Positions 50,894-60,394 of a stretch of DNA of 64,000 nt are shown piece after piece. The DNA is taken from contig JADDQF010000130.1 in NCBI GenBank assembly GCA_016781505.1, positions 53,637-117,636 on the forward strand, written 5' to 3'. Each line of letters starts with the position of its first letter. The stretch's first letter is position 1. The notes under the pieces were generated by a model. The model had not been told where the DNA came from. It saw nothing but the letters and a program-made list of their open reading frames with translations, and did not search any database. The position numbers were made by a program, and so were the translations under genes. The DNA is from a bacterium. Its GTDB lineage: Bacteria > Chloroflexota > Chloroflexia > Chloroflexales > Kallotenuaceae.

Positions 50894-50926
50894 GTGAACT
50901 GGCCTGTAACCGCGCAGTGGTATGTT
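50894..50926 (+). promoter_or_regulatory. PHA element copy 1 (upstream of phaE-like/phaC)
   Basis: GTGAACT-GGCC-TGTAACC-N9-TATGTT. Confidence 0.65.
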
Positions 50927-50982: not shown

Positions 50983-51462
50983 ATGACTCAACGCCCTGAT
51001 GATGCTAATCCGTTCGATCCATTCGGCACCATGCGCTCCATGCGGGACGCCAACATGGAAGCATGGTCGAAGATGATGCAGCAGTTTGTCAATACCCAGG
51101 AATACTCGCAGGCCACCAGTGCCATGCTGGATGCTTACCACACAACCTCAGCGCCGTTTCGCAAGGCGATCGAGCAAGCGATGACGCAGGTGCTGCAGCA
51201 GTTTAACATGCCTACCCGCATGGATGTAACAAATCTGGCCGACCGGCTCACAAACATCGAGACACGGCTTGACGACCTGGACGCGCAGCTGTCGGCGCTC
51301 CAACGCGGTGGCGGAGCGGCTACCGGCGCGCAGGGCCAGGGGCAAGCCCAGGCGCCGGGCGCTCCTTCAGACGCCGCCGCGTCGATGGACCCGGTCGTGG
51401 AGCAGCTGAGCGAAACAGATAGCGGCCAAGGCGGCAATCCGCAGTCGGAGGAGCGACCGTGA
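50983..51462 (+). CDS. PhaE/PhaR-like PHA synthase partner subunit
   Basis: MPTRMDVTNLADRLTNIETRLDDLDAQLSALQ helical C-terminus; overlaps start of phaC. Confidence 0.7.
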   Translation: MTQRPDDANPFDPFGTMRSMRDANMEAWSKMMQQFVNTQEYSQATSAMLDAYHTTSAPFRKAIEQAMTQVLQQFNMPTRMDVTNLADRLTNIETRLDDLDAQLSALQRGGGAATGAQGQGQAQAPGAPSDAAASMDPVVEQLSETDSGQGGNPQSEERP

Positions 51463-52544
51463 TGAAGCAGCAGGAGATGCCCCGGACACCCGAAGACATG
51501 CGGGCAGAGCTGGAGCGCATCACGCAGCAAACACAAACGCTGAGCCGGGTACTCACAACCCGTTATCCGGTTGGACAAACACCCAAAGAGACGGTTTGGA
51601 CGTTGAACAAGGCCAAGCTGTACCGGTACATACCCCAGGTGCCACCGGAGCAGCGGCATCGCACGCCGCTGCTGCTGGTGTTTGCGATCATGAACAAGCC
51701 CGCGATTCTTGACCTGCGCCCCGGCAATAGCTTTGTGGAGTACATGGTCAAGCAGGGCTACGATGTGTACCTGCTGGATTGGGGCGTTCCCGGTCCCGAA
51801 GACAAGCACATCAAGTTCGACGACTATGCGCTCGAATATCTACCCCGTGCGATTCGTAAGCTCAAGGCAGTGTCGGGGTCCGACGAGTTTTCGATGTTGG
51901 GATGGTGCCTGGGCGCGCTGATCACGACGATCTATGCTGCGCTCCGGCCCAATGACGGGTTGAAAAACCTGCTCCTGCTCACGGCGCCGCTAGACTTCTC
52001 GGACAAAACGGCCGGTGGATTTATCCGTTGGACCAATGATAAAAACTTCGACGTCGATCAAATTCTGGCGACCTATGGCAACATGCCGGGCAAGCTGATC
52101 GACTACGGGGCGAAGGCGCTCAAGCCCGTCGAGAATTATATCGGCACCTATCTCAATCTTTGGGACAACCTCGACAATCCCAAGATCGTCGAGTCGTGGC
52201 ACGCGATGAACACCTGGGTCAACGATCTGATCCCGATGGCGGGCGCTGCATTCCAGCAACTGATCAAAGATTTCTATCGCGGCAACAAATTGGCCGAGGG
52301 CACGCTCACGATCCGGGGCGAGCGCGTAGACTTAGCCAATGTGCGGGCAAACTTGTTGAACCTCATTGCCCTATCGGATCATATCACGCCCACCTGCCAA
52401 TCCGAGACCGTGATGCCCGCCTTTGGCTCGCAGGACAAGACGTTGCTCAAGATTCCAGGTGGACATATCGGGATAATGGCGGGCAGCGGCGCGCTTAAAC
52501 GAACCTGGCCACAGATCGATCAATGGTTGGCGGCGCGGGACTAA
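51462..52544 (+). CDS. phaC: PHA synthase (class III/IV-like), Cys nucleophile
   Basis: VYLLDWGVPGPEDK; lipase-like box FSMLGWCLGALITTIYAAL; GGHIGIMAG. Confidence 0.92.
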   Translation: MKQQEMPRTPEDMRAELERITQQTQTLSRVLTTRYPVGQTPKETVWTLNKAKLYRYIPQVPPEQRHRTPLLLVFAIMNKPAILDLRPGNSFVEYMVKQGYDVYLLDWGVPGPEDKHIKFDDYALEYLPRAIRKLKAVSGSDEFSMLGWCLGALITTIYAALRPNDGLKNLLLLTAPLDFSDKTAGGFIRWTNDKNFDVDQILATYGNMPGKLIDYGAKALKPVENYIGTYLNLWDNLDNPKIVESWHAMNTWVNDLIPMAGAAFQQLIKDFYRGNKLAEGTLTIRGERVDLANVRANLLNLIALSDHITPTCQSETVMPAFGSQDKTLLKIPGGHIGIMAGSGALKRTWPQIDQWLAARD

Positions 52545-52592
52545 GTGCCCAACGGTGCAAGGCTGCTGCGCTCCTCAGGAGGAGGTATTGAT

Positions 52593-53135
52593 ATGATCCG
52601 CCAAACCACGCTTCAACCGCGTACCTCACAGCTCCGAGACGGACGTTCCGTAACGGTCCGTGCGCTAGCCGAGAGCGACCACGAGGCGATGACCCGATTT
52701 GGCTCGGCTCTGCCCGAAGATGACTGGCTGTACTTGGAGCTGGATTTTCATAACCCGAATACCATCACCCGGCTCGTAAATGCGGCCGCGGCCGAGAACT
52801 GGCGGCAGGTCGTCGCCGAGTACGAAGGGGCAATTGTGGGCTACAGCAACGTTCGCCTGCTGCCGGGCTGGAAGAGTCATGTTGCGGACACGCATCTGGT
52901 GATCAGCGAAGGCTGGCGGCGGAGTGGGCTTGGACTTGAGGTGGCCCAGACGATTTTGGAAGCTGCGCGCGACTTGGGCGTCACCAAGGTGATCGCGGAG
53001 ATGCCCGATGAGCAGCGCGCCGGCCGAGCGATCTTCAAGCACCTTGGCTTTCATGTGGAAGGCATCTTAAACAACCACGTGCGCGACCATCATGGTCATT
53101 ACCACGACATGGTGATCATGGGCTACGAGCTGTAA
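52593..53135 (+). CDS. GNAT family N-acetyltransferase
   Basis: WRRSGLGLEVAQTILEAARDLGVTKVIAEMPDEQ; RBS AGGAGG upstream. Confidence 0.88.
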   Translation: MIRQTTLQPRTSQLRDGRSVTVRALAESDHEAMTRFGSALPEDDWLYLELDFHNPNTITRLVNAAAAENWRQVVAEYEGAIVGYSNVRLLPGWKSHVADTHLVISEGWRRSGLGLEVAQTILEAARDLGVTKVIAEMPDEQRAGRAIFKHLGFHVEGILNNHVRDHHGHYHDMVIMGYEL

Positions 53136-53263: not shown

Positions 53264-53296
53264 TTGAACTTGGTTGTAACCGGCCTGCGGTACACT
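53264..53296 (+). promoter_or_regulatory. PHA element copy 2 (upstream of phasin-like gene)
   Basis: TTGAACT-TGGT-TGTAACC-N9-TACACT. Confidence 0.7.
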
Positions 53297-53360: not shown

Positions 53361-53657
53361 ATGAGCGACGCAACGACGACGCAGCAGCAGTATCGCGAAC
53401 AGTTTACGGCGGCCGGCCAGGCTACCCAGGAGGCGTTTCAGGCGGCGAATGAGGTTGCGCTTGCCACGGCGGAGTGGACCCTGCGCACTACGGAACAGGG
53501 CCTACGCTTCAGCCAAGACCTGCGGAACCAGAATGACCGCATCGCCCAGGATGCGTTTGCAACCTATCGCCGCTGCTACGAGGACGGCCTGCGCAACTGG
53601 CAAGGCTACGTCCAGAGTGTCACCGGCATCATGAACCGCTCGCTGGACCGACGGTAA
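53361..53657 (+). CDS. Phasin-like granule-associated protein
   Basis: Short all-helical Gln/Ala-rich protein in the PHA cluster; GGAGG RBS. Confidence 0.6.
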   Translation: MSDATTTQQQYREQFTAAGQATQEAFQAANEVALATAEWTLRTTEQGLRFSQDLRNQNDRIAQDAFATYRRCYEDGLRNWQGYVQSVTGIMNRSLDRR

Positions 53658-53798: not shown

Positions 53799-53905
53799 AT
53801 ATTGCACAAGGCAAGGCAGAGCGTGCAGCTTAGGAGATAGCCCATCCATCGGCAAGCGCTATCGGCTCGCTTTTCGCCTCATCGATGAGTACAAGGTGCA
53901 TCACG

Positions 53906-54589
53906 ATGAATGTGATTCTGGTTGGCCCTCCCGGAGCAGGCAAAGGCACTCAAGCCGCCGTACTGGAAGAAAAAACAAAGCTTAAGCATGTGGCGAGCGG
54001 CGATCTGTTTCGGCAGCATATGCTCAACGAAACGCCGCTTGGTCTGCAAGCCCGCTCCTTCGTCAGTCGAGGGGAGCTGGTACCGGACGACATCGTGATC
54101 GGCATGATTTTGGACCGGGTTTTTCAGCCCGACTGCAGCCGCGGAGTTATCTTCGACGGCTTTCCTCGCACCCAGGAACAAGCGCAGGCTTTGGCACACG
54201 CGCTGCAGCTTCATCACAAGACGCTTGATGCCGTTGTTTTCTTGAGCGCGCCTCGTGATACGTTGTTGAAGCGCATTGTGGGACGGCAAACATGTCGTAC
54301 CTGTCAAACGCCCTACAATCTGTACTATAACCCGTCGCGCGAAGAAGGCATGTGTGACCTGTGCAACGGCACCCTGTACACCCGTCCCGACGATAATCTC
54401 GAAACGGCGCGCCATCGCCTCGACGTGTATATGGCGCAAACAATGCCGCTGATCGAGCATTACCGCAGCCTCGGCCTGCTGCACGAAGTGGACGGGCTTG
54501 GGGATGTGCACGAGGTAACGGCGCGGGTCGTGCAGCAGCTTGGCCTCGCCTCCACCGAAGCCGAGGAACACTGCCTCACGCAGCCCTAA
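53906..54589 (+). CDS. adk: Adenylate kinase with zinc-binding lid
   Basis: MNVILVGPPGAGKGTQA; FDGFPRTQEQA; CRTCQTPYNLYYNPSREEGMCDLCNG. Confidence 0.95.
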   Translation: MNVILVGPPGAGKGTQAAVLEEKTKLKHVASGDLFRQHMLNETPLGLQARSFVSRGELVPDDIVIGMILDRVFQPDCSRGVIFDGFPRTQEQAQALAHALQLHHKTLDAVVFLSAPRDTLLKRIVGRQTCRTCQTPYNLYYNPSREEGMCDLCNGTLYTRPDDNLETARHRLDVYMAQTMPLIEHYRSLGLLHEVDGLGDVHEVTARVVQQLGLASTEAEEHCLTQP

Positions 54590-54653: not shown

Positions 54654-57600
54654 TCAAGCTCTTTTTACCGCTTCGTAGGCGAGGGTTGTTCGGGGCAACG
54701 GCGCAACGCCGAGATGGATTTGTAAGTTGCGGACGCAGCGCTCATAGGTTGCGAGCGCTTGCTGTCGATTGCCTTGCAGCGTGTACGCCTCGATCAGGAG
54801 CCGGTAGCCGTCTTCCCACGCTGGATTGCGTGCCACAATCAGCTCGCCAAACTGGATCGCCTCGGTGATGCGCTGCGACCGAATCAGCAGCTCAGCGAGC
54901 AGCGTTACCGCTTCAAGATACACCGGCCGCAGCCGTTCCCGCTCGTTCTGCGACCACTCCTCGTACAAATACTCGCTCAGATATTCACCACCGTACATGC
55001 CGACAGCCAGCATCAGCGTCGCCAGCGCGTGTTGGATGTCATCGTTCGTGCCCTTATCAGCTGCGGCCTGCGCCGCGGCGACACGAGCCTCGAATTCCTC
55101 CACGTCCAGCCACACGCCGTCAAGCCCCACAAAGCGGTAGGTTTCGTCCTGCCGCCGGATGTAGAAGGGCTGGGTGCGGGCTGGCCGCGCCGGCTCAAGC
55201 GCGGTGTTGAGCGCATGGAGTGTCACTTTGAGCTGCCCGACCGCCTCTGCGGGTGTTTCGTCGGGCCAGAGCCACTCACAAATTTGATCGCGCAGCAGCC
55301 AGCGATGCCGATTGGTGATCAGCAGCGCTAACAGCAGCGCGGCCTTTTTGCGCCGCCATTCGCGCGGAGCGATCTCAGCCATGCCCCGCCAAACACGTAA
55401 TGTTCCCAACGTTTGAACACGCAGCGTGGAGCCGGGATGGTAGCTTTCGGTATCATAATCGGTTGCAATGGCGGGAAAGCCATCCGCCAACCAGCGCTGC
55501 GCAGGCACGTGCCAGCGTTGGTCTGCCCGCGCCGTCAACAAGATCGGCACAAGCATCATCCGGTCGCGCGGACCGAGCAGGGTAGCTCCGGTAAGCAAGC
55601 CGGCGTAATCATGCTGCTGGACTAATGCCAATACGGCGTCAATATGGGGTAATGCGTTCGCGCTCTGTTCGCCGCGCTGCCACCAGATGGCTTGCCAAAG
55701 CCGCACCATCGCCTGGCCGTAGGTATCCTTGCAGCGCTCAAACTGGTGTTGTGCTTGTCCGAGCCATCCGGGGGCATCCTGCGCGCCATGCACGACGCTT
55801 ATGGCGCCGAGCGCCGTCCACAGCTGCGCGGCCATCCACATATCACCACTCGGCTCTACGCTCGCCAGGCCCTCGTGGGCTGCCGCTTGCGCCGCCCGCA
55901 GATCGCCGCCGAATCCATGCAACAGCGCGAGCCCGAGGTAGGCCTCAGCCTTGGTCCGCTGCACATTGAACGAGTCCGCCAGCGCGATTGCCTGCAGATA
56001 ATGCTGGTTGGCGGCCAAGGGATCCGCCGTCGGGCCGAGCTGGCAAGCATGACCCATCCGCATCTCGGCAATCGCCTCAAGCAAACCTGAGCCTCGTTGT
56101 CGCGCGGCCGTCAATGCTTGTTGGGCATACTGCGCCGCACCACCGTGGTCGCCTTGCAACGCACAAATGTAGGCGAGCAGCACAGTCGCTTCGCGGTGCG
56201 CTTCAGCCGGCCGCTGGGAGCCGTCGCTCTGATTGTGCCGTAGCTCCTGCCGCAGCATCGCAGCTGCTTCCGAGAGGCGACCGAGGCGCAGCAGCAGGCG
56301 GGGCTGATGTTGTGCAAGCTCAGCGGGCGTTGGTGGCTCAACTTGGTCGGCCAGCTGGTAGAGACGCGCAGCCTGATCTGCCCGCCCGCCGTTGAGCCGA
56401 TTTTCGGCAATCAAGCGGAGCAGGGCAGCGCGTCTTGACGTTTGTGCCCGTGGTATCAGGCGGTATGCTTGGCGGAGCAGATCGTGGGCACGAGCGGGGC
56501 GCACTGTGTCAAGCAACACGCGCGCTTGGCCCGCGAGCGCGCTTGCCTGTCCCAAGCGATTGCCCTGCCGCGTATAGCTGTGCTCAGCGGCCTGGTAGGC
56601 TGCCACGGCAAGCTCGAAGCGATCAAGGAGGCGGGCTGCGTCACCGCGAGCAACAAGCAGCTGGGGGTGCTCGGCAAGCACGGTATCAGGCAGACGGTCG
56701 GTCCAGGCCAGCAGTGTGGTAAAGCGTCCGGTATCCAACCATTGCTCGGCCCAACGCTCTAATTCCGCGGCTACGACGGACAGGTCGCCCGTGGCGCTGA
56801 GGTGCTCCAGGACCAGCTCACCGCTACCTTGTTGGCGATAATAGTCGGCAGCGCGCAGGTGCAGCGCGGCCCAATCCGGCAGTGTAGCCCGGCCTTGCTG
56901 GCGCAGAAAGGCATGAAACAACGGATGGTAGCGGTAGCGGTCAGGGCTGAGCATGGTAAGAAACACGCCGCGCTGGTCGAGCGCCTGCAAGGTGGTGCTT
57001 GAGGAGTCGGAATGGAGCACCCAATCGCATACCTGAGGTTCAAGTTGTGTTAGCACTGCCGAACGTAACAAAAATGATTGCAGCTCCGGCGGCTGATCGG
57101 CAAACACGTCCTGCGCCAAGTATGCGAATACAAGCTCACGGGCAGCTGCTCCTAACACATGCTCGACGGGATTATCCGTACCCGCGTTCACCTCTGCCCC
57201 GAGCCCAGTTCCAGCTGGGCTGTGTAGCTGCTGCGGCATGCCGCCCCCATGCCGCGTGCCTTGCCCGATCAGCTGCAGTGCGATTGGCCAGCCGCCTGTT
57301 TGTTGGTGCAACACAGCTGCTTCTGAGGGCGTCAGCTGCCAGCTGTAGTTTGCGGCGAAGAGCGCCCGCATCTCGTCCGGTGTAAACGCCAGATCCGCTT
57401 CGCGAATTGCCAATAGCTCGCCCCGTGCATGCAGCGTGAGGAGATTATGGAGCTGTGGCCAATGGCGGGTTGCCAGCACCAGATGTAAACGAGGCGGCAG
57501 ATGGTTGATCAGCTGTTCCAGAAGCGCGCGGATGGCCGGCACATCCGCGACCACGTGCAAATCGTCGAGAATCAACAAGGTTTCGTCGTCCAGCGCGTCG

Positions 57601-57974
57601 ACGAGGTCGTTGATCAAGGCGTCGAGGGCCGCTGCCCACCGTGCTGGGCCCGGTTCGTGACTTTCCAGCAGCGCAATTGTATGGGTGCCTACCTCCGGCA
57701 TAACGGTTCGGCAGGCATACACTAAATGCAGCAGAAAGACCAGCGGATCCGCAACGCCTTCGCCTACGCTGAACCACATTGTTGGCCAGCCACCCCGCAC
57801 GGCGAACGATGCCAGCTCACTCGATTTACCGTATCCGGCACTTGCCTGCACAATGCAGATCGTGCGCTCTGCTGCCTCCGCCAAAAGGTCGTCCAAGCGT
57901 GGACGACGCATCCAGCCTCGCGGTAGACGAGGCGGAATGAGGCGGGTACGAACAATCAGCTCAGCGGCGGGCAT
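54654..57974 (-). CDS. Large MalT-like AAA/TPR regulator with C-terminal winged-helix + BTAD (SARP-type) module
   Basis: N-term RTRLIPPRLPRGWMRRPRLDDLL, QASAGYGKSS Walker A, LLILDDLHVV; C-term LGTLRVWRGMAEIAPREWRRKKAALLLALLITNRHRWLLRDQICEWLWPDE and BTAD/TPR. Confidence 0.88.
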   Translation of the reverse strand: MPAAELIVRTRLIPPRLPRGWMRRPRLDDLLAEAAERTICIVQASAGYGKSSELASFAVRGGWPTMWFSVGEGVADPLVFLLHLVYACRTVMPEVGTHTIALLESHEPGPARWAAALDALINDLVDALDDETLLILDDLHVVADVPAIRALLEQLINHLPPRLHLVLATRHWPQLHNLLTLHARGELLAIREADLAFTPDEMRALFAANYSWQLTPSEAAVLHQQTGGWPIALQLIGQGTRHGGGMPQQLHSPAGTGLGAEVNAGTDNPVEHVLGAAARELVFAYLAQDVFADQPPELQSFLLRSAVLTQLEPQVCDWVLHSDSSSTTLQALDQRGVFLTMLSPDRYRYHPLFHAFLRQQGRATLPDWAALHLRAADYYRQQGSGELVLEHLSATGDLSVVAAELERWAEQWLDTGRFTTLLAWTDRLPDTVLAEHPQLLVARGDAARLLDRFELAVAAYQAAEHSYTRQGNRLGQASALAGQARVLLDTVRPARAHDLLRQAYRLIPRAQTSRRAALLRLIAENRLNGGRADQAARLYQLADQVEPPTPAELAQHQPRLLLRLGRLSEAAAMLRQELRHNQSDGSQRPAEAHREATVLLAYICALQGDHGGAAQYAQQALTAARQRGSGLLEAIAEMRMGHACQLGPTADPLAANQHYLQAIALADSFNVQRTKAEAYLGLALLHGFGGDLRAAQAAAHEGLASVEPSGDMWMAAQLWTALGAISVVHGAQDAPGWLGQAQHQFERCKDTYGQAMVRLWQAIWWQRGEQSANALPHIDAVLALVQQHDYAGLLTGATLLGPRDRMMLVPILLTARADQRWHVPAQRWLADGFPAIATDYDTESYHPGSTLRVQTLGTLRVWRGMAEIAPREWRRKKAALLLALLITNRHRWLLRDQICEWLWPDETPAEAVGQLKVTLHALNTALEPARPARTQPFYIRRQDETYRFVGLDGVWLDVEEFEARVAAAQAAADKGTNDDIQHALATLMLAVGMYGGEYLSEYLYEEWSQNERERLRPVYLEAVTLLAELLIRSQRITEAIQFGELIVARNPAWEDGYRLLIEAYTLQGNRQQALATYERCVRNLQIHLGVAPLPRTTLAYEAVKRA

Positions 57975-58118
57975 AGGCAAGCAGCAAGCGCCTTTCACCG
58001 GTAGGCGGGGGCCGGGCGCAGGTAATCCATATTCCAGATGTAGGCCTGTAAACTAGGTTTAACTATACCATAGCTCACCGCACGGCTACTGGTCGGTGTC
58101 CGCGCTGAACTACGGCGT

Positions 58119-58151
58119 GTGAACTGTAGTGTAACCGGGGTGCTGTACCTT
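58119..58151 (+). promoter_or_regulatory. PHA element copy 3 (upstream of SDR/PhaC-like genes)
   Basis: GTGAACT-GTAG-TGTAACC-N9-TACCTT; additional CTGAACT at 58105-58111. Confidence 0.7.
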
Positions 58152-58354
58152 AGGTTTTTAAGTGTGTCGGCCGCAGCAGGGACGCTCTGGAACTGCAAAC
58201 GACGAGCAAGCCAGCGCGGTTCTAAGTGGTTCTTAGGGTGACCGTACGCTTCGCTTGCGTTCTGGCCTGCCGCTGAGGAAGTCATGCGCTGGCGACAAAC
58301 GCCTGCACCGTGTTGCAGCTGCACAATGGACCAATGGAGGGCAAACCGAACACT

Positions 58355-59134
58355 ATGGGCATCGAACTAAACGGGCGGATTGCGGTTATTTCTGGTGGGG
58401 CGAACGGCATTGGCTACGCAACAGCGCGGACGTTTGCTCAAGCTGGGGCAAAGGTCGTCATATGGGACTATGCCGCGGAAGCAGGCGAGGCAGCAGTCAG
58501 CAGCTTGACCGCTGACGGGGGCGAAGCGGTGTTCCACAAAGCTAATGTGGCTTCGCCATCCGATACGGAAGCTGCGGCCGGTGCTACCATCGCGCAGTTT
58601 GGACGCATCGATATCCTGATTAACAACGCCGGGATTTGTCGCGATGCCCAACTGGTGAAAGTCAAAGGTGGCGACGTCGTCGGCAAGCTGAGCGAGGCCG
58701 ATTGGGACGCCGTGATCGCCGTCAACCTCAAGGGTGTATTCAATTGTACCCAGGCGGTGGCGCCGTATATGATCCAGCAGCGCTATGGCCGGATCGTCAA
58801 TGCGGCGTCGGTGGTTGCATTACACGGTAATTTCGGGCAGACGAACTACGTCGCGAGCAAGGCGGGAGTGATCGGCATGACCAAGGTATGGTCACGAGAG
58901 CTGGGCAAGCGTGGCATCACGGTTAATGCCATCGCGCCGGGCTTTATCGCCACCGAGATGACCAAAGGCATGCCCGAACAAGTGCTGGGCGCGATGGTCG
59001 AGCATACGCCGGTTGGTCGGATCGGACAGCCGCAGGATGTGGCCAATGCGTATCTGTTTCTCGCGTCGGACGAGGCAAGCTTCGTTAATGGCGCAGTGCT
59101 AAGCGTCGACGGTGGCCTGGTTTTAGGCACTTAA
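58355..59134 (+). CDS. SDR family oxidoreductase (acetoacetyl-CoA reductase-like)
   Basis: SGGANGIGYATARTFAQAGAKV; NYVASKAGVIGM; in PHA region; upstream ATG at 58334 possible. Confidence 0.87.
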   Translation: MGIELNGRIAVISGGANGIGYATARTFAQAGAKVVIWDYAAEAGEAAVSSLTADGGEAVFHKANVASPSDTEAAAGATIAQFGRIDILINNAGICRDAQLVKVKGGDVVGKLSEADWDAVIAVNLKGVFNCTQAVAPYMIQQRYGRIVNAASVVALHGNFGQTNYVASKAGVIGMTKVWSRELGKRGITVNAIAPGFIATEMTKGMPEQVLGAMVEHTPVGRIGQPQDVANAYLFLASDEASFVNGAVLSVDGGLVLGT

Positions 59135-59302: not shown

Positions 59303-60394
59303 GTGTTTCCACCCTTCTGGGGCTTTCCACCCGTCAACCCGGCAATGTTGCAACAGATGCAGCAGTATGTGGAACAGATGCAAGGCCGCTTCGATGCCTC
59401 GTTTCGGGCGCTGCTTGCGCTCGATCCGCGCGTCGTCGCGCAAACGCCTGCCGACGTCGTCTTCCGCAAAAACAAACTGCGCCTGTTACATTACCGCGCC
59501 GTCGCTCCGCAGGTACAGCCGGTGCCGCTGCTGGTTGTGCCGTCGATTCTGACCCGCTACTATGCGCTGGACTTGATGCCTGGCCAAAGCATGATCGAAT
59601 ATCTGGTTGGACGCGGGATCGATGTGTATCTGCTGGATTGGGGCCCGACCGGCAAAGAGGACCGCTCCACCACCTTCGACCAGTACGTGACCACACGGCT
59701 GGGACAGTTTGTGCAGCAGGTCCGCGAACACGCTGGTGGCCAGCCGATCAGCCTGCTCGGCTATAGCTTGGGCGGAACGTGGGCTGCGATCTACAGCGCG
59801 CTCTTTCCCGAGGATATCCGCAATCTGGTCGCGATTGCCGCGCCGATCAATTTCCACGACGACGGCGTCCTTTCACAATGGGCGCGCAAAGAACGTTTCA
59901 ACGTGGATCTGGTGGTCGACACGATCGGCGCGATGCCCGCGCCCTTGATGCAAGCCAGCTTTCGGATGCTCAAGCCGACGTTAACCATTGCGCAGCAGCT
60001 GGCGTTGGCCGACACATCCGGGGAGCTGGATGTGGTGCAAGATTATTTGGCGATGCAAAGCTGGCTCACCGATACGACGCCTTGGCTGGGTGAAGCGTAT
60101 CGCACCTACATCAAGGAGTGCTACCAGGAAAATCACCTCGTGCAAGGCAAGCTCGTTGTCGCGGGACGGCGGGTGGACCTTCGTTCGATCACCAGTGCAC
60201 TCCTGACCGTAATCGCCGCCAAAGACCAGCTATGCCCGCCCCGTTCGTCAGCTGTTTTGCACGATTTGGCCTCCAGTACGGACAAGCAGCTGCTTGAACT
60301 GCCTGGCGGGCATGTCAGCATGGTATCCGGACGTAAAGCCCTCAACCAGCTCTGGCCGCAGCTGGCGGACTGGCTCATACGCCAGTCGGCCTAG
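59303..60394 (+). CDS. PhaC-family protein with Ser (not Cys) in the nucleophile position
   Basis: VYLLDWGPTGKEDRSTTFDQYV; SLLGYSLGGTWAAIYSALFPEDI; AAKDQLCPP; GGHVSMVSG. Confidence 0.88.
   Translation: MFPPFWGFPPVNPAMLQQMQQYVEQMQGRFDASFRALLALDPRVVAQTPADVVFRKNKLRLLHYRAVAPQVQPVPLLVVPSILTRYYALDLMPGQSMIEYLVGRGIDVYLLDWGPTGKEDRSTTFDQYVTTRLGQFVQQVREHAGGQPISLLGYSLGGTWAAIYSALFPEDIRNLVAIAAPINFHDDGVLSQWARKERFNVDLVVDTIGAMPAPLMQASFRMLKPTLTIAQQLALADTSGELDVVQDYLAMQSWLTDTTPWLGEAYRTYIKECYQENHLVQGKLVVAGRRVDLRSITSALLTVIAAKDQLCPPRSSAVLHDLASSTDKQLLELPGGHVSMVSGRKALNQLWPQLADWLIRQSA

Follow-up and report, generated by a model that had tools for sequence, protein, structure and literature searches.

The window, a stretch of 64,000 nucleotides from a 4.18-Mb draft genome assembly, encodes a second PhaC paralogue in which Ser takes the position of the catalytic Cys of PHA synthases. 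Comparative analysis indicated that this Ser represents a switch inside a second PhaC lineage rather than the mark of an old separate family, because the closest relative of the Ser-containing clade uses Cys. The protein, hereafter PhaC(Ser), may be a granule-associated serine esterase or transesterase that acts on PHA (3-hydroxyacyl) ester chains, a function to which we assign, on sequence grounds, a little less than an even chance.

PhaC(Ser) is a 363-residue class III-type PhaC paralogue encoded at 59303..60394 (+), identified by TIGR01836, PhaC_N, and Abhydrolase_1 matches and by an AlphaFold model. The open reading frame, its coordinates, and its motifs, when re-read from the sequence, agreed with the preliminary description. 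Translation starts at a GTG codon (59303) with an AAGGAG ribosome site immediately 5'. Sequence and alignment placed Ser155 (AGC; 59765..59767, +) of the GYSLGG motif at the position of the catalytic Cys. Asp308 (GAC; 60224..60226, +) in AAKDQL is followed by Gln309, where His is the norm among PhaCs, and His337 (CAT; 60311..60313, +) lies in GGHVS, with Ser at residue 339, a conserved Gly elsewhere. The complete Ser-Asp-His triad previously described on this PhaC scaffold is therefore present as Ser155, Asp308, and His337, and the canonical synthase with GWCLGA (Cys150) was likewise seen at 51459..52544 (+), with 51462 as the alternative start. PhaC(Ser) and the canonical PhaC are true homologues, given their identity of 36% over 355 residues (E = 9e-75). 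The TIGR01836 match of PhaC(Ser) was nearly full length (residues 16-358; 316 bits; E = 2.5e-94) and fell below the cut-off of 365 bits, as did that of the canonical PhaC (342 bits), so that this cut-off was not discriminating; the PhaC_N and Abhydrolase_1 matches exceeded theirs. Solved PhaC crystal structures were the top matches both by sequence and by fold, the latter using the AlphaFold model (pLDDT 72), from which no active-site geometry was read because the lid region (208-233 and 244-260) had pLDDT values <50. With respect to membership of the PhaC class, homology and the catalytic Asp and His were found, and the Cys nucleophile (G-X-C-X-G/A) was not.

To determine the distribution of the Ser nucleophile, we collected homologues from 84 Chloroflexales genomes and 399 Chloroflexota genomes and aligned 69 distinct sequences. 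Ser occupied the nucleophile position in five: those of the window (AGC), Kouleothrix aurantiaca (AGC), a Kouleothrix metagenome-assembled genome (MAG; AGC), and genomes G435 (AGT) and G003 (TCA). These five come from draft genomes, and one ends at a contig edge. The nearest relative of all five was the second PhaC of genome G004, which has Cys (TGT) and 57% identity, and the other 63 aligned PhaCs, all but one from Chloroflexota, had Cys without exception. The tree of aligned PhaCs joined these six proteins with support of 100/99 and the five Ser members with 99/94, the Cys member being their sister; after plasmid-borne PhaCs were added, the corresponding values were 100/99 and 98/89. A distinct Ser clade in Chloroflexi, which the preliminary description had raised as a point to check, was thereby found, and the sequencing error at the AGC codon that it had named as a refuting case was excluded by the occurrence of Ser in five genomes with codons AGC, AGT, and TCA. 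The named relatives belong to Kouleothrix (Roseiflexaceae, Chloroflexales). A single-protein search of the genome contig collection gave matches only in Kouleothrix and one Cloacimonadota contig, and a search of viral contigs found no relative.

The AGY and TCA codons beside a TGT sister could reflect a single Cys-to-Ser change with a later codon switch, or two such changes in parallel. Counted in nucleotide steps, two parallel changes require three and a single change with a codon switch four, which slightly favours parallel changes without being decisive. PhaC(Ser) is under purifying selection: the three Kouleothrix copies gave dN/dS values of 0.08-0.12 by the NG86 method, at dS values approaching saturation. 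This selection together with the intact reading frames ruled out a pseudogene. A relaxed or decaying paralogue, in which Ser would be a neutral loss-of-function step, might account for the longer branches of the window and G003 copies, but the intact reading frames of the complete copies, the low dN/dS, the full triad, and the conserved promoter context make it highly improbable.

Next, we focused on substitutions that accompany Ser. Conserved columns were defined as those with the same residue in at least 90% of PhaCs, and 47 such columns were also kept in the Cys sister of G004. Exactly four of the 47 were altered throughout the Ser clade: Cys155 to Ser, Asn210 to Ala or Thr, His309 to Gln, Val, Met, or Arg, and Gly339 to Ser or Asp, the last read in the four complete Ser members. 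Residue 309 comes immediately after the catalytic Asp and residue 339 lies two beyond the catalytic His, so that three of the four altered columns are no more than two residues from the triad (hypergeometric p = 0.013). The G004 protein belongs to the same clade, has the PHA element and the same regulator family described below, and carries a phasin gene directly upstream; it differs from PhaC(Ser) in keeping Cys, Asn, His, and Gly at these positions and in passing the TIGR01836 cut-off (370 bits). Compared with class III/IV PhaCs (TIGR01836), PhaC(Ser) shares full-length homology, the PhaC N-terminal region, the nucleophile elbow, the Asp and His positions, and a location in a PHA locus, and differs in having Ser for Cys, in the loss of Asn210, His309, and Gly339, and in the lack of an adjoining PhaE/PhaR gene.

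The His at position 309 corresponds to His448 of Chromobacterium PhaC, which follows the catalytic Asp and lies at the dimer interface (PMC5509742). The oligomeric state of PhaC(Ser) may accordingly have changed, as would suit a pseudo-synthase, a weak catalyst that attaches to granules or to the canonical PhaC and regulates the latter. Against this, no complete Ser member has lost a triad residue or the nucleophile elbow, features for which a dead enzyme would have no use, and we consider such a role improbable. Since the complete triad is under selection, PhaC(Ser) is probably catalytic.

A survey outside Chloroflexota covered 23 PhaC-family loci of a plasmid collection, three of which had Ser: that of Tsukamurella, with GYSQGG and DQI, and those of Acinetobacter baumannii and Nocardia farcinica, both with GWSLGG and with DII and DVI, respectively. 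PhaC-like proteins with Ser thus occur also outside the Chloroflexota clade, which ruled out a Ser nucleophile unique to Chloroflexota. They resemble PhaC(Ser) in the Ser nucleophile and in having no His after the catalytic Asp, but constitute a separate deep lineage (99/98, long branches) with at most 29% identity. The Acinetobacter (L116/L121) and Nocardia (L114/L122) copies stand alone, with no evident PHA genes found within approximately 5 kb, whereas the Tsukamurella domain (L105), of the PRK07868/NF005898 type, lies within a protein annotated as AMP-binding. PhaC(Ser) itself is standalone, with no AMP-binding fusion, and scored 67 bits against the PRK07868/NF005898 cut-off of 925 bits. 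The M. tuberculosis protein Rv1683 has lipase activity (PMC10699116, PMC3503283); a link between PRK07868 and Rv1683 was not used as evidence, as PMC10699116 gives the opposite domain order. Overall, His after the catalytic Asp was found in none of the 8 Ser members and in 79 of the 84 Cys members, which is a strong pattern rather than a statistic, because the sequences are related (at least two lineages) and a Fisher test on them yields no clean probability. A natural Ser has also been claimed for the PHA-linked proteins Streptomyces SCO7613 and S. aureofaciens 'PhaC' (PMC8313934). GASAG is unlike the PhaC elbow, and the authors of that paper found no Cys/His/Asp triad around the SCO7613 lipase box (PMC8313934). 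The variants listed in a review of halophile PhaCs all keep Cys (PMC7137286).

We then examined the genomic context of PhaC(Ser). The gene order in the window was acs, phaA, phaB, phaE-like, phaC(Cys), GNAT, phasin, adk, regulator (on the reverse strand), SDR, and phaC(Ser), and orthologous loci of relatives retained much of this order. The PhaE/PhaR-like synthase subunit (50983..51462, +) was recognised by phaR_Bmeg (E = 1.5e-11, below the cut-off) and PHA_synth_III_E (E = 4e-5); its reading frame is open from 50917, with ATG 50983 as the likely start. The phasin-like protein (53361..53657, +) had a Phasin_2 match below the cut-off (E = 0.0027) and was kept in the PHA loci of relatives. Directly 5' of PhaC(Ser) is an SDR gene (58310..59134, +; likely start ATG 58355; adh_short_C2, E = 4.8e-68) of the FabG/PhaB-like reductase or 3HB dehydrogenase type, and an SDR 74% identical to it adjoins the regulator in G004. 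The composition of the transcription unit around the paralogue varied. In the window it was SDR-PhaC(Ser), whereas G435 and the Kouleothrix MAG had phasin-isocitrate lyase-PhaC(Ser), G003 had isocitrate lyase-PhaC(Ser)-hydrolase, and G004 had phasin-PhaC(Cys)-hydrolase. The identity of isocitrate lyase was confirmed in both loci tested (PRK15063, approximately 800 bits; cut-off, 562). No PhaE/PhaR gene was present beside PhaC(Ser), and a separate Cys PhaC occurred in all six genomes (the five with Ser and G004).

A 28-bp PHA element, TGAACT-N4-TGTAACCG-N6-KGTA, was found upstream of phaE-phaC (50895..50922, +), upstream of the phasin gene (53265..53292, +), and, as an exact match, between the divergent regulator and SDR genes (58120..58147, +). 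These were exactly the copies present in the 4.18-Mb genome at two mismatches or fewer, all three at the PHA locus; the number expected by chance in the window at three mismatches was 0.04. A relaxed form, TGAAC-N5-TGTAAC-N10-TANNNT, preceded the phasin and SDR genes in G004, the phasin and isocitrate lyase genes in G003, and the phasin genes of G435 and the Kouleothrix MAG. Its spacer to the -10-like box was always 10 at 10 distinct sites, 8 of them exact, compared with 0.05 sites expected per shuffled 64-kb window. The direct repeats lie one helical turn apart just upstream of the -10 box, as in a SARP-controlled promoter, since SARP activators bind two repeats so spaced at that position. 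The candidate activator (54654..57998, -) has a MalT-like ATPase/TPR region (PRK04841 MalT) and a C-terminal BTAD (SARP) domain (E = 1.4e-22), and its orthologues, with 52-54% identity, occur in the PHA loci of G004 and G435. The repeat layout, the location of the BTAD regulator between the phasin and SDR genes, and these orthologues make a SARP-controlled PHA regulon that includes PhaC(Ser) the most likely arrangement. The preliminary description placed the shared element upstream of PhaC(Ser); the element is real, but it lies upstream of SDR, approximately 1.16 kb before the PhaC(Ser) start, and a position directly upstream of PhaC(Ser) was corrected accordingly. Because the element precedes SDR, PhaC(Ser) would be under its control only if the two genes are co-transcribed; they are separated by 168 bp, in which no terminator-like site was seen. 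The relaxed element was common to several Chloroflexales PHA loci (L059, L060, L063, L068, and L069), and in the window the candidate activator is adjacent to it.

The preliminary description suggested a changed reaction (thioesterase, depolymerase, or chain transfer) or a Ser-using synthase; the clade, the triad, and the further active-site changes lend plausibility to a changed reaction. With an oxyester acyl-enzyme, most of the driving force that chain growth draws from a Cys thioester is lost. Oxyesters are good substrates for Ser triads, and transfer from a Ser oxyester to another hydroxyl is near neutral, with hydrolysis favoured. This chemistry and the changed neighbourhood of the active site speak more for an enzyme that hydrolyses or transesterifies PHA esters than for a synthase. 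We propose that the catalytic Cys was replaced by Ser in a second PhaC paralogue already within the Chloroflexales PHA gene set, which may have yielded a competent serine alpha/beta-hydrolase on a PhaC scaffold, co-expressed with the synthase and phasin through the action of a SARP-type activator. The substrate of such an enzyme would be PHA (3-hydroxyacyl) ester chains and its site of action the granule, where Ser155, activated by His337 and Asp308, would attack a chain ester or thioester to form an oxyester acyl-enzyme. Water or another acceptor would resolve this intermediate and release 3-hydroxyacids, oligomers, or shortened chains for mobilisation or chain-length control. That the protein is catalytic, which substrate it uses, in which direction it works, and which protein regulates it are inferences from these observations.

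Phasin, SDR, and isocitrate lyase were tied to PhaC(Ser) by the element and the transcription units, and isocitrate lyase in the PhaC(Ser) unit fits acetyl units derived from PHA mobilisation or acetate uptake without being decisive. Against action on PHA chains, the Ser set is small (five sequences), and its regulon also expresses synthesis genes, an arrangement just as compatible with a synthase. A Ser-using PHA synthase, polymerising 3-hydroxyacyl-CoA slowly or with other monomers, would retain the PhaC scaffold, the class III profile match, and the PHA regulon, and the title of Amara and Rehm (2003; cited in PMC5509742) indicates that the class II synthase of P. aeruginosa with a Cys296-to-Ser mutation makes a new polyester. 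We consider it rather unlikely, given that three further conserved positions at or near the active site are lost, that a Cys synthase is always present too, and that Ser acyl-enzyme chemistry disfavours elongation. The reductase gene immediately 5', the full Ser triad, and a PhaC-like substrate scaffold would also suit a thioesterase or acyltransferase that tunes PHA flux by freeing 3-hydroxyacids from 3-hydroxyacyl-CoA or passing the acyl group elsewhere, but PhaC(Ser) had no thioesterase family match, and the phasin and isocitrate lyase genes linked to it suggest a part in granule and acetyl-unit metabolism instead, which renders this function quite unlikely.

PHA depolymerases were also considered. 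Like PhaZ (PF06850, TIGR01849, 8ynv), PhaC(Ser) is a Ser-type alpha/beta-hydrolase with a Ser-Asp-His triad, a feature that is not specific. Its C-terminal PF06850 match was above the cut-off (31 bits), but it fell far below TIGR01849 (27 bits; cut-off, 300.75), and its structure matches were led by PhaC synthases, with the Bacillus-type PhaZ 8ynv at rank 39. Apart from PhaC(Ser), the window genome had no PF06850, TIGR02240, or PF10503 matches above the cut-off; other depolymerase candidates include ordinary alpha/beta-hydrolases that bear some resemblance to Bacillus PhaZ. Most Chloroflexales genomes encode PhaC, yet a TIGR01849-type depolymerase was found in none of the 84, including members without PhaC(Ser). 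This absence weakened the explanation of PhaC(Ser) by a missing PhaZ and counts against an esterase role, as PHA carriers without PhaC(Ser) must also cope and the gap is not specific.

A literature search, which covered a minority of subscription papers, found no account of a Cys-to-Ser switch that arose within a clade of true PHA-locus PhaCs and was accompanied by correlated active-site changes. The new part is the nested Cys-to-Ser switch within a PHA regulon, natural Ser at the PhaC nucleophile existing in other lineages. It is possible, though doubtful, that a PHA synthase became a PHA-cleaving or chain-transferring serine enzyme by a nucleophile swap and compensating changes within the same regulon, perhaps twice inside one small clade, given the AGY and TCA codons; if so, the clade would be a natural record of the path from polymerase to depolymerase, comparable with its Cys sister. 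The need of PHA synthases for Cys, and the choice between polymerisation and hydrolysis on the PhaC fold, have been addressed mainly by site mutants to date. The close Cys/Ser pair, with four conserved positions switched and the normal synthase kept, renders them directly testable. Residues 210, 309, and 339 are candidates for engineering PhaC chain length or release, and PhaC(Ser) may point to a PHA-releasing enzyme in an order that yielded no TIGR01849-type PhaZ.

Two other genes of the locus were observed. A GNAT acetyltransferase gene lies directly 3' of phaC in Chloroflexales (window, 52545-53135; L062, 3959-4501), and a distant counterpart (31% identity) follows phaC on a Novosphingobium plasmid (L117, 1438-1809); this gene possibly encodes a PHA-linked acetyltransferase. 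An adenylate kinase gene is located within the PHA locus between the phasin and regulator genes (window, 53885-54589) and is kept in G003 (L063, 3385-4080).
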